Both the position numbers and the translations under genes were made by a program. The notes under the pieces were generated by a model. That model was not told the DNA's origin. It searched no databases and saw only the letters and a program-made list of their open reading frames with translations. Positions 35,641-57,776 of a DNA stretch of 64,000 bases are shown here, one piece after another. The DNA comes from Cellulomonas sp. JZ18 (lineage in GTDB: Bacteria; Actinomycetota; Actinomycetes; Actinomycetales; Cellulomonadaceae), in the NCBI RefSeq assembly GCF_009720485.1, contig NZ_CP045245.1, positions 1,550,001 to 1,614,000 of the forward strand. The letters run 5' to 3'. Positions within the stretch are counted from its first letter, which is position 1, and each line of letters opens with the position of its first letter.

Positions 35641-36004
35641 GGGCGCCCGAGGGGGCTGCACGTGGGGCGGCGCGGCTCGGCTGGCCGCCCGTGGGCCACC
35701 GGCCAGCCGGTCTCCGCGCGCGACGCCGCGGTGCCGGAGGTGCACGAGCACGTGCCCCCGCCCGTGCTCGCACAGCGCGTCGGACAGCCCCCGTGCCCGC
35801 GTCGACCACGGCCGCCGGCTCGGCCACGGCGCCGGCGTGCCCGGGCGAAGACGTCGTCGTGCGTCACGTCGTCCTCGACCGCGCCGACCGTGGACGTCGG
35901 CACGGCGCGCAGCTCGACCGCGACCGGCGCGAGCGCCGGCGCGCCGGAGGCAGCAAGAAGGCCTCCTCCCAGCGTCTCCGCCGGTCAGAGGCCTTCGTTC
36001 GCGC
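35641..36004. other. 364-bp interval without a supported gene
   Basis: All frames in this stretch are Arg/Pro-rich and lack family matches. Its right end carries the terminator of the minus-strand tRNA-Asn gene (35957-35996). Nothing else is recognisable. Confidence 0.55.
35957..35996 (-). terminator. tRNA-Asn terminator hairpin
   Basis: GAAGGCCTC (35957-35965) and GAGGCCTTC (35988-35996) are exact reverse complements. They lie 9 nt downstream of the tRNA-Asn 3' end on the minus strand, followed by a TTCTTGCTG stretch. Confidence 0.7.
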
Positions 36005-36076
<72 letters not shown>

Positions 36077-36758: not shown

Positions 36759-36832
36759 TGGGCCAGGTGGGGCTTGAACCCACGACCGACGGATTATGAG
36801 TCCGCTGCTCTGACCGGCTGAGCTACTGGCCC
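36759..36832 (-). tRNA. tRNA with CAT anticodon (Ile2 or elongator Met)
   Basis: The 74-nt gene has acceptor GGGCCAG/CTGGCCC, D-arm TAGCTCAGCCGGTCAGAGCA, anticodon stem-loop GCGGA-CTCATAA-TCCGT and T-loop GGTTCAAGCCC. Both C4-G69 and C5-G68, identity pairs used by TilS in tRNA-Ile2, are present, which favours Ile2 (lysidine-modified). Elongator Met cannot be excluded. Confidence 0.9.
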
Positions 36833-37862: not shown

Positions 37863-38648
37863 ATGACCACGGTCGCCGCGAGGTCGTCGGGGAACGTCTG
37901 GGAGGTCGGTGCGCGCGCCGGCTACGCCGCGAGCGGCCTGCTGCACGTGCTCGTCGGCGTGCTCGCGGTGCAGCTGGCCGTCGGCGGGGGCGGTGGGTCG
38001 GCGGACCAGTCGGGGGCCTTCGCCCAGGTCGCGCAGACGCCGTTCGGGGCGGTGGCCCTCTGGTTCGCGGTGGTGGCGCTCGCCGCCCTCGGCGCGTGGC
38101 AGGCCGCGGCGGCCCTGAGCGGGGCGGTCGGCGGTGCCGGCGACCGGGCCAAGGCCGCCGGCAAGGCGGTCGTGTACCTCGCCCTCGCCGCGACGGCCCT
38201 GACGTTCGCGCGCGGGGGCGGCTCGGCCGGTTCCGGCGGGCGGACGTCGGACGCCACGGCCGCGTTGATGCAGGCGCCCGCGGGGCGCCTGCTCGTCGGT
38301 GCGGTCGGGGTCGGCGTGGTGGCCGTCGCGGCGTACCACGTGCACAAGGGGGTCCGGCAGCGCTTCCTCGAGGACCTGCACCGGCTGCCGGCGGGGCGGA
38401 CCGGGCGGTGGGCGCGCCGCGCGGGTGTCGCCGGCTACGTCGGGAAGGGCGCCGCGCTCGCGGTGGTCGGCGTGCTCTTCGTCGTCGCGGCCGTGCAGGC
38501 GGACCCGGGGGAGGCGACCGGGCTCGACGGCGCGCTGCACGCGCTGCGCGACGCGCCCGCCGGTCCGGTCCTGCTGCTCCTCGTGGCCCTCGGACTCGTC
38601 GCCTATGGCGCGTACAGCCTGGTCAGGGCCCGGTTCGGTCGCCTCTGA
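37863..38648 (+). CDS. DUF1206 integral membrane protein
   Basis: The 261-residue protein has six hydrophobic segments in three repeats of about 80 residues. Each repeat begins with an ARAGYAASGLLHVLVG-like motif (WARRAGVAGYVGKG in the third), which is the DUF1206 pattern. Function is unknown. ATG 37863 follows GAGGTGT. It precedes the c-di-GMP riboswitch and bldC on the same strand; the promoter-like TTGCAC/CATGCT at 38691-38719 separates them. Confidence 0.9.
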   Translation: MTTVAARSSGNVWEVGARAGYAASGLLHVLVGVLAVQLAVGGGGGSADQSGAFAQVAQTPFGAVALWFAVVALAALGAWQAAAALSGAVGGAGDRAKAAGKAVVYLALAATALTFARGGGSAGSGGRTSDATAALMQAPAGRLLVGAVGVGVVAVAAYHVHKGVRQRFLEDLHRLPAGRTGRWARRAGVAGYVGKGAALAVVGVLFVVAAVQADPGEATGLDGALHALRDAPAGPVLLLLVALGLVAYGAYSLVRARFGRL

Positions 38649-38690
38649 CATTTCACCCGCACCGGGCGTATGTCCGACCCCCGGTGGTTC

Positions 38691-38719
38691 TTGCACGGAT
38701 GTCCAGTTTCCGGCATGCT
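38691..38719 (+). promoter_or_regulatory. Candidate bldC promoter
   Basis: TTGCAC (38691-38696), a 17-nt spacer and CATGCT (38714-38719) match sigma-A spacing. The predicted start would be just before the riboswitch at about 38725. Confidence 0.55.
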
Positions 38720-38724
38720 CTTCC

Positions 38725-38803
38725 CCGTCAGCGACAAACGGCAAACCCGCCGCAAGGCGGGGACGCAAAGCCACGGGGCCCACGCGGCCAGCCGAGCTAC
38801 CGA
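38725..38803 (+). promoter_or_regulatory. Cyclic-di-GMP-I (GEMM) riboswitch
   Basis: The core features are all present in order: CGGCAAACC (from 38739), the P1b stem CCCGCC-GCAA-GGCGGG (38746-38761) with its GNRA tetraloop, GGGACGCAAAGCCACGGG (38759-38777, quoted as two parts GGGACGCAAAG and CCACGGG), and a second stem with GCCAGCCGAGCTACCG (38787-38802). This matches the GEMM-I consensus. It lies in the 5' leader of bldC, whose AAGGAG (38810-38815) and ATG (38822) follow directly. Regulation could act on translation start or termination. Confidence 0.93.
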
Positions 38804-38821
38804 ACGACGAAGGAGCCAGAC

Positions 38822-39046
38822 ATGGCCGTCCAGACGCACACCACCGACGCCCCCCTCTCGCAGGGCACGCTGCTCACGCCGGGCGAGGTCGCGGTCCTCT
38901 TCCGCGTCGACCCCAAGACCGTGACCCGCTGGGCGCAGGCCGGCAAGCTCTCGGCCGTCCGCACGCTCGGTGGCCACCGCCGCTTCCACGAGGCCGAGGT
39001 CCGTCAGCTCCTGACGGGCGTCCCGCAGCAGCGCGCGAGCGAGTGA
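38822..39046 (+). CDS. bldC: BldC-type MerR-like DNA-binding protein
   Basis: The 74-residue protein is a short MerR-type HTH protein. It has LLTPGEVAVLFRVDPKTVTRWAQAGKL (17-43) and the wing TLGGHRRF (48-55). It closely resembles BldC, a small developmental regulator of Streptomyces that binds head-to-tail on DNA. ATG 38822 follows AAGGAG. The c-di-GMP riboswitch sits immediately upstream. A long perfect hairpin follows the stop, so it is probably monocistronic. In Cellulomonas its targets are unknown. Confidence 0.92.
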   Translation: MAVQTHTTDAPLSQGTLLTPGEVAVLFRVDPKTVTRWAQAGKLSAVRTLGGHRRFHEAEVRQLLTGVPQQRASE

Positions 39047-39078
39047 GCCCGGCCGCCGGGGGGCGGCACGCACGACAC

Positions 39079-39119
39079 CGACGACGCCGGTGGTGACCTG
39101 GTCACCACCGGCGTCGTCG
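39079..39119 (+). terminator. 18-bp palindromic hairpin after bldC
   Basis: Bases 39079-39096 pair exactly with 39102-39119, with CCTGG at the tip. It ends 33 nt downstream of the bldC stop and has no T-tract. Confidence 0.85.
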
Positions 39120-39201
39120 CGTCCGTGCACGTCCCGGTCGCCCCGCGGCAGTGGGCGGTGCACGGGCTCCGGCACCCACCCCGACGTGAAAGGATCGGAC
39201 C

Positions 39202-39690
39202 ATGGCCCTGCGTGAGATCCGGACCGTCGGCGACCCCGTCCTGCGCACCCCGTGCGAGCCCATCACCAGCATCGACGACCGCGTCCGCGCGCTGGTCGAC
39301 GACCTGCTCGAGACGGTCGACCAGGAGGGCCGCGCCGGCCTCGCTGCGAACCAGATCGGCGTCTCCCTGCGGGCCTTCTCGTGGAACATCGACGACGAGA
39401 TCGGCTACGTGCTGAACCCGCGGATCGTCGAGCTGTCCGAGGACGAGTACCAGGACGGCGACGAGGGGTGCCTCTCCGTGCCCGGCCTGTGGTTCCCGAC
39501 CCACCGCGCCTGGTACGCGCGCGTGGAGGGCACCGACCTGGACGGCAAGCCGGTCGTGGTCGAGGGCACCGAGCTCATGGCCCGCTGCCTGCAGCACGAG
39601 GTCGACCACCTCGACGGCATGCTGTACCTGGACCGCCTCGAGCGCTCGGTGCGCAAGAAGGCGATGCGGGCCATCCGCGAGCAGCTCTGA
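39202..39690 (+). CDS. def: Peptide deformylase
   Basis: This 162-residue metalloenzyme removes the formyl group from nascent proteins. Its three motifs are GLAANQIG (46-53), EGCLSVP (Cys90) and QHEVDHLDG (His132 and His136, metal ligands, with Glu133 catalytic). ATG 39202 follows AAAGGA. It lies downstream of the bldC terminator. The window also encodes methionine aminopeptidase (61.7 kb), the next step of N-terminal processing, but not nearby. Confidence 0.97.
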
Positions 39691-51019: not shown

Positions 51020-51093
51020 TGGGCCCGGCCGGTCTCGAACCGACGACCTCCGCGGTGTAAGCGCGGCGCTCTGACCAACTGAGCTACAGGCCC
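51020..51093 (-). tRNA. tRNA-Val (TAC)
   Basis: The 74-nt gene folds as a cloverleaf with acceptor GGGCCTG/CGGGCCC, D-arm TAGCTCAGTTGGTCAGAGC, anticodon stem CCGCG/CGCGG with loop CTTACAC (anticodon TAC) and T-arm GGTTCGAGACC. CCA is partly encoded downstream as CACC but not as a clean CCA end. Confidence 0.94.
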
Positions 51094-57375: not shown

Positions 57376-57776
57376 GCGGATGAGTCAGCCGGTACGCCGG
57401 GTTCTGTCCCCGCGCGCGGTTGCCCCCGCGCGGGTGGCGGCCATCCATCTACGACGTACGTTGCCGCACGCCTCCAGCGGCCTACCCGGGAGCTCGGGCG
57501 GGCAGCCCTCGGACGCTCCCTGTCTGGCCTTGCTCCGGGTGGGGTTTACCTAGCCGCACCGGTCACCCGGCACGCTGGTGGTCTCTTGCACCACCGTTTC
57601 ACCCTTACCCCGCACGTCCGGCGGACCGGTCGTGCGTGGCGGTCTGCTCTCTGTGGCACTGTCCCGCGGGTCACCCCGGGTGGGTGTTACCCACCACCCT
57701 GCCCTGCGGAGCCCGGACGTTCCTCGGCGGGCCCTCCGGGGAGGGACCGACGCGGCCGCCTGGCTGACTCATCCGC
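57376..57776 (-). ncRNA. rnpB: RNase P RNA
   Basis: Read on the minus strand, this shows the type A RNase P RNA landmarks: GAGGAACGTCCGGGCTCC near the 5' end, ACAGTGCCACAGAGA, GGGTGAAACGGTG, AAGAGACCACC, TAGATGGATGGCCGCC and the 3' ACAGAACCCGGCGTACCGG. The outer helix P1 pairs 57376-57390 with 57762-57776 over 15 bp. Length near 400 nt is normal. The DUF817 reading frame overlaps its 5' part. Confidence 0.96.

Follow-up and report, generated by a model that had tools for sequence, protein, structure and literature searches.

A c-di-GMP-I riboswitch upstream of a second BldC-family gene in Cellulomonas and close relatives

In Streptomyces, c-di-GMP acts through the protein BldD, as described in a passage of an earlier study (PMC6428758). 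The 64,000-nucleotide stretch of the Cellulomonas sp. JZ18 genome analysed here (the window) carries a c-di-GMP-I aptamer just before a BldC-family gene, and the locus raises the question of whether the same signal reaches a regulator of this family through RNA.

The aptamer and the gene behind it

A cmscan search of the window against Rfam returned a c-di-GMP-I (RF01051) match at 38730–38804 on the + strand that spans the full model (1–87) and scores 55.1 bits where the gathering threshold is 35, with an E-value of 5e-8 for a search of all 64 kb against 4227 Rfam families; it is the sole match to this family at or above the curated cut-off in the window. The original prediction had placed the riboswitch at 38725–38803 and proposed an Infernal search with RF01051 as its check; the search gave a significant hit and confirmed the element with a shift of a few bases. 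The landmarks that it had listed are all in place, namely GGCAAACC, a P2 helix (earlier called P1b) capped by a GNRA loop (GCAA, 38752–38755), GGGACGCAAAG, CCACGGG and GCCAGCCG, and the alignment supports a predicted P1 helix that closes the junction. Our own mapping on the sequence, in which we take the Vc2 numbering to carry over to the window leader, puts the predicted contact residues G20, A47 and C92 at G 38740, A 38767 and C 38800. In Vc2 these three residues contact the ligand, according to part of a published account (PMC4744006). The features of the locus are as follows.

38651..38659, + strand: TTTCACCCG box with core TTCACCCG, roughly 75 bases 5′ of the predicted transcription start (by eye)
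38691..38719, + strand: predicted promoter TTGCAC, 17-base spacer, CATGCT (by eye, 81 aligned loci)
38726..38729, + strand: 5′ strand of the P1 helix (CGUC), in the region where the transcript is predicted to start (RNAalifold, 75 leaders)
38730..38804, + strand: c-di-GMP-I (GEMM-I) aptamer (RF01051, 55.1 bits, E 5e-8)
38740, + strand: G equivalent to Vc2 G20, a ligand contact (G in 73 of 75 leaders; own mapping)
38740–38747, + strand: GGCAAACC landmark (sequence)
38800..38801, + strand: CC, the Vc2 C92 equivalent and the next base, with alternative pairing to the Shine–Dalgarno GG (ensemble folding)
38806..38809, + strand: 3′ strand of the P1 helix (GACG), immediately 5′ of the Shine–Dalgarno sequence (RNAalifold and alignment counts)
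38810..38815, + strand: Shine–Dalgarno sequence AAGGAG (sequence)
38822..39046, + strand: bldC2, encoding a 74-aa BldC-family DNA-binding protein, read here as a paralogue of the DUF3073-linked bldC (ORF, NF033787)
39080..39120, + strand: strong inverted repeat after bldC2, a possible transcript end (by eye; not called as an intrinsic terminator)

The ORF opens with an ATG at 38822, 17 bases past the end of the riboswitch match, and its product scores 100.2 bits against the NCBI model HTH_BldC (NF033787, cut-off 77). The Pfam families HTH_17, MerR and MerR_1 all fall on one helix–turn–helix; the protein is a stand-alone winged helix–turn–helix of 74 aa without an effector domain. Its best solved-structure relatives are chains 6ama and 6amk, titled only 'Putative DNA-binding protein', which we take to be Streptomyces coelicolor BldC. 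The closest named relative, from Cellulomonas telluris (L084), is 99% identical over 74 columns.

Streptomyces BldC and the window protein are both small MerR-like winged helix–turn–helix proteins with a conserved helix and GGHRR wing, and two observations nevertheless separate them. The same genome holds a second BldC copy at C1:711679, which has no riboswitch, adjoins a DUF3073 gene and is 75% identical to the window copy over 62 residues. In a tree of 128 BldC proteins that has 76 columns only and many unresolved forks, the S. coelicolor stretch (6ama) groups among the DUF3073-linked rows, with weak resolution, and the window protein does not group with it. The set that holds 6ama comprises 44 rows (support 92/92, not starred); the window protein lies outside it, but L072 and L097, both riboswitch-linked and on long branches, lie inside. 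On this tree the label 'riboswitch-linked' requires 5 changes against a shuffled mean of 36.8; by these sequences the riboswitch-linked copies are strongly clustered, with one clade not established. Neighbouring genes point the same way: the window copy has no DUF3073 and lies before def, whereas the copy at L004 adjoins DUF3073. Because DUF3073 lies within the fetched stretch at only 11 of 30 class-level BldC loci (the genome's own one included), it serves as a marker inside Cellulomonadaceae and not as a definition of the bldC orthologue. We read the window gene as a second, paralogous BldC and name it bldC2 here. What had been called a bldC gene is thus a member of the BldC family but, judging from the tree and from the DUF3073-linked copy, not the orthologue of S. 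coelicolor bldC.

Distribution of the riboswitch–bldC2 pairing

The original prediction had suggested a search of related Cellulomonadaceae bldC leaders, where the element recurs. A pattern scan of a contig collection described as covering 84,980 species, in which an aptamer core had to be followed at fitting distance by a BldC start and the motif VDPKTVT, found at least 80 loci, all selected in this way for both aptamer and BldC. Among the matches listed, 68 are labelled Cellulomonas or Actinotalea (hand count); the other labels comprise ten metagenome-assembled genomes (MAGs) with broader labels (one of them 'Proteobacteria'), one Pengzhenrongella and one Cellulosimicrobium. Starting from the protein, we found the riboswitch upstream in 29 of 29 further loci (L039–L067), a set made of the best window-protein matches in Cellulomonadaceae and biased to close relatives of the window gene. 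RF01051 matches occur in 116 of 221 Cellulomonadaceae genomes and in 7 of 25 genera, with search filters that lose some weak matches. As far as these sequences go, the riboswitch–bldC2 pairing is conserved in Cellulomonas and close relatives.

Riboswitch and DUF3073 divide the BldC copies between them. We compared 40 further BldC copies, those of 27 genomes, of which 20 had no riboswitch match, and the genome's own second copy, giving 69 rows and 65 different genes, with four genes fetched twice (L219–L222). A riboswitch without DUF3073 accompanies 20 of these genes, DUF3073 without a riboswitch 41, and neither the remaining four (24, 41 and 4 before de-duplication by hand); the two occur together in none of 178 rows. 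Among the four, L245 and L246 belong to a single genome as additional paralogues, and L181 and L195 carry a riboswitch with an altered core that the motif missed. The changes in these two bldC2 leaders, CAGAG for CAAAG and GCATAC for GCAAAC, may reflect decay or an altered specificity. Five genus g2 genomes (G004, G007, G013, G016 and G018) have the riboswitch-linked copy as their sole BldC match at 1e-15, and no BldC signature was found around DUF3073 in these five, three of which are very fragmented drafts.

The genomic setting is shared in part. Across 81 loci, the window included, def lies within 0.7 kb 3′ of bldC2 in 23 and at 3.7–5.1 kb in 15 (hand count), usually with DUF3145 adjoining it; in most of the remaining loci the downstream flank is too short for def to be judged. 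No def match was found in five loci with at least 4.7 kb of flank (L078, L117, L121, L137 and L144), three of them labelled Actinotalea. This distribution establishes a shared genomic place in Cellulomonas and Pengzhenrongella but does not do so in Actinotalea.

The pairing was not recovered at 29 RF01051 loci outside the family (L148–L176), drawn from 42 such genomes in which the riboswitch model matched: none showed a BldC signature, some stretches being short. This pass used the BldC signature alone, as 22 of the 29 had given no aptamer-motif hit in a first, ORF-based pass. Conversely, none of the 30 class-level BldC loci closest to the DUF3073-linked copy, the genome's own one included, has a riboswitch. 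Three genomes (two labelled Actinotalea and one Actinomycetales MAG) each carry two riboswitch–bldC pairs with clearly different proteins (L072/L078, L077/L126 and L097/L120). The pair in a record labelled Cellulosimicrobium cellulans DE0111 (L145) encodes the very protein found in a record of Cellulomonas hominis (L138); either the record is mislabelled or the pair was transferred.

Leader architecture and a proposed mode of control

The bldC2 leader consists of little beyond the aptamer. A promoter-like motif, with CATAGT in many relatives where the window has CATGCT, would make transcription begin at the aptamer's 5′ end; a simple sigma-70 consensus scan of the region did not call the candidate at 38691..38719. 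Farther upstream, the TTTCACCCG box appears by eye in many, not all, of the aligned bldC2 upstream regions, in either orientation. Its TTCACCCG core is also found near the second riboswitch of the genome and upstream of the DUF3073-linked bldC, and possibly marks the site of a shared regulator.

The 81 loci gave 75 distinct leaders (one had no found start and five were identical to others), to which a P1 helix of C/UGUC with GACG/A is common, with RNAalifold probabilities of 0.83–0.97. Its positions are paired in 273 of 300 cells, compared with 49 to 210 when the partner strand is slid, the upper of these values counting against the model, and none of 500 shuffles scored as high. Two-sided changes occur at three of the four pairs; at two of those three, a single clade (GUUG/CGAC) accounts for the nine changed cells. 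In 71 of the 75 leaders the 3′ strand of P1 ends 0–1 base 5′ of the motif taken as the Shine–Dalgarno sequence.

Because the promoter-like motif, the aptamer and the Shine–Dalgarno sequence share one short conserved leader, it is a reasonable inference that the riboswitch directly controls bldC2. Translation initiation is the likeliest level of control, since a scan found no terminator-like site within 38550–39250 and the leader has no space for one. We put the probability that c-di-GMP controls bldC2 translation, in either direction, at about 0.7. The genome has seven GGDEF matches, and c-di-GMP is therefore probably made in this organism. In the mechanism that we propose, transcription would start at the aptamer and c-di-GMP binding would close P1, whose 3′ strand, by alignment, abuts the Shine–Dalgarno sequence; the switch would then act on translation initiation, and BldC2, once made, would serve as a transcription factor on its targets. 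For an ON switch, the CC at 38800..38801 would pair with the Shine–Dalgarno GG in the ligand-free RNA and hide it, and the ligand would take the CC and free it.

Folding bears on the direction, and its lean on ON or OFF reverses with the amount of coding sequence included. In the ligand-free ensemble of the window leader, CC:Shine–Dalgarno pairing reaches 0.61, 0.71 and 0.96 with 3, 18 and 40 coding bases, but it exceeds 0.3 in only 33 to 38 of 74–75 leaders. When the aptamer is enforced on the leader alone, Shine–Dalgarno exposure rises by more than 0.1 in 34 of 74 leaders and falls in 6, which speaks against a translational OFF switch, in which the ligand-stabilised P1 at the Shine–Dalgarno sequence would hinder the 30S subunit and high c-di-GMP would lower BldC2. 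With coding sequence included the counts turn in favour of such a switch (17 up and 23 down of 75 with 18 coding bases; 15 up and 25 down of 74 with 40). In the window itself, enforcing the aptamer takes exposure from 0.50 to 0.97, from 0.37 to 0.29 and from 0.27 to 0.53 with 3, 18 and 40 coding bases, respectively. An OFF switch would also fit a conserved P1 that abuts the Shine–Dalgarno sequence, although the GGAG core itself lies outside P1. Class I switches of both signs have been published, and according to a review (PMC6366702) the attributes of one cannot simply be carried over to another. We lean slightly towards ON; OFF is only a little less likely, and its weight is a share of the figure given above for translational control in either direction.

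Two further readings leave the aptamer in place and change what it does. It could bind c-di-GMP with little or no effect on bldC2, as a vestigial or non-regulatory element, and the altered core bases of L181 and L195 would suit such a history. Precedent exists in Clostridioides difficile 630, where only 11 of 16 c-di-GMP riboswitches were functional, as given in part of the same review (PMC6366702). We consider this unlikely for bldC2, as the aptamer, P1 and its contact with the Shine–Dalgarno sequence have been kept across many species. At the position equivalent to G20, where an A is associated with sensing of cyclic AMP-GMP, L116 has an A and L115 a C. The RNA might instead recognise a cyclic dinucleotide other than c-di-GMP, for example cyclic AMP-GMP, as a few rare GEMM variants are described to do in PMC7266159. 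We regard this as very improbable, the window being among the 73 of 75 leaders with G at that position. Translational control by c-di-GMP, with the slight lean towards ON, is the reading that we carry forward.

Relation to BldD and to other c-di-GMP riboswitches

The original prediction had set RNA control of a bldC gene apart from the BldD route of Streptomyces. The RNA does lie upstream of a BldC-family gene, but that gene is a paralogue. A search for PF21179, the C-terminal domain of BldD-like proteins, found it in none of 48 Cellulomonadaceae genomes, the genome's own included, and in 10 of 10 genomes outside the family that served as a positive control (58 genomes in all, of our own choosing). 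Given this absence from the 48 searched genomes, RNA may replace the BldD route in the family, and is probably not an extra route alongside it; the pairing suggests a link from signal to regulator in which the classical protein BldD plays no part. In Streptomyces c-di-GMP reaches the Bld regulators chiefly by way of BldD and bears on a bldC gene through this protein repressor of transcription; as proposed here, it would do so through RNA in a family whose searched genomes gave no BldD-like domain. Excerpts of the Streptomyces study (PMC6428758) report that BldC and BldD share 15 bound genes or operons, bldC among them, and that BldC is an activator of cdgE, which encodes a diguanylate cyclase. 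Both proteins are ancient actinobacterial regulators, and bldC and bldD are seldom both present in simpler actinobacteria, as stated in part of a review (PMC4255298).

We offer, tentatively and at rather less than even odds, a history for this arrangement. In a family without detectable BldD, the c-di-GMP input to BldC would have moved from protein to RNA: after a duplication of bldC, one of the copies would have acquired a minimal riboswitch acting on translation, with the Shine–Dalgarno sequence competing with the ligand for its binding cytosine, and some Actinotalea-like genomes would have retained that copy as their sole BldC. If true, the same signal has been wired to the same regulator family through a different molecule, where BldD was not found. 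To our knowledge Cellulomonas makes no aerial hyphae, which raises the question of what BldC does there. A role in motility only was rejected: flagellin (PF00669) is present in 119 of 221 Cellulomonadaceae genomes, but 14 of the 29 genomes behind the protein-found loci have no flagellin match and keep the riboswitch and bldC2, and genera without the riboswitch (g6 and g22) have flagellin. The pair is thus not simply an accessory of flagella.

Compared with RF01051 in general, the bldC2 riboswitch matches the full model in sequence and structure and retains the contact residues by our mapping; it differs in a leader that is nearly aptamer alone, in P1 lying against the Shine–Dalgarno sequence and in a BldC-family target. 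The Vc2 RNA of Vibrio cholerae, which precedes the regulator gene VC1722, has a class I aptamer as in the bldC2 leader and a target of a different family. The mechanism of Vc2 on VC1722 is described as unknown in part of one paper (PMC4744006), and neither Vibrio class I riboswitch uses transcription termination, according to a passage of the review (PMC6366702). In the c-GAMP riboswitch of Geobacter pilM, a downstream G ties up the C that pairs with the ligand when the terminator fold forms, as set out in a section of PMC9262584. The proposed ON logic of bldC2 would be analogous, with a ligand-contacting C sequestered when ligand is lacking; pilM acts through a terminator, whereas in the bldC2 leader the Shine–Dalgarno sequence would be the competing strand. 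The riboswitch class is known and already in Rfam, and its target here is apparently undescribed: no link between a c-di-GMP riboswitch and BldC was found in searches of open-access papers, a scope that takes in few subscription papers and allows for an earlier mention there.

Other structured RNAs in the window are an ordinary class A RNase P RNA (57377–57771, − strand) and three ordinary tRNAs (36004–36076, 36759–36832 and 51020–51093, all on the − strand). The genome has two RF01051 matches, that of the window and one at C1:3898268. The latter (68.4 bits; L001:1333–1575, minus strand) precedes a 50-aa ORF beginning MDQRGSAAEP, and similar ORFs of 43–51 aa follow riboswitches in several relatives (L011, L021, L026, L028 and L029). 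Three of these small ORFs had no Pfam match at E-values of up to 1; such ORFs may represent a family of small proteins controlled by c-di-GMP. Outside Cellulomonadaceae but within its taxonomic order, L150 (from 1501 onward) and L152 have c-di-GMP-I riboswitches before ORFs that resemble response regulators by eye.
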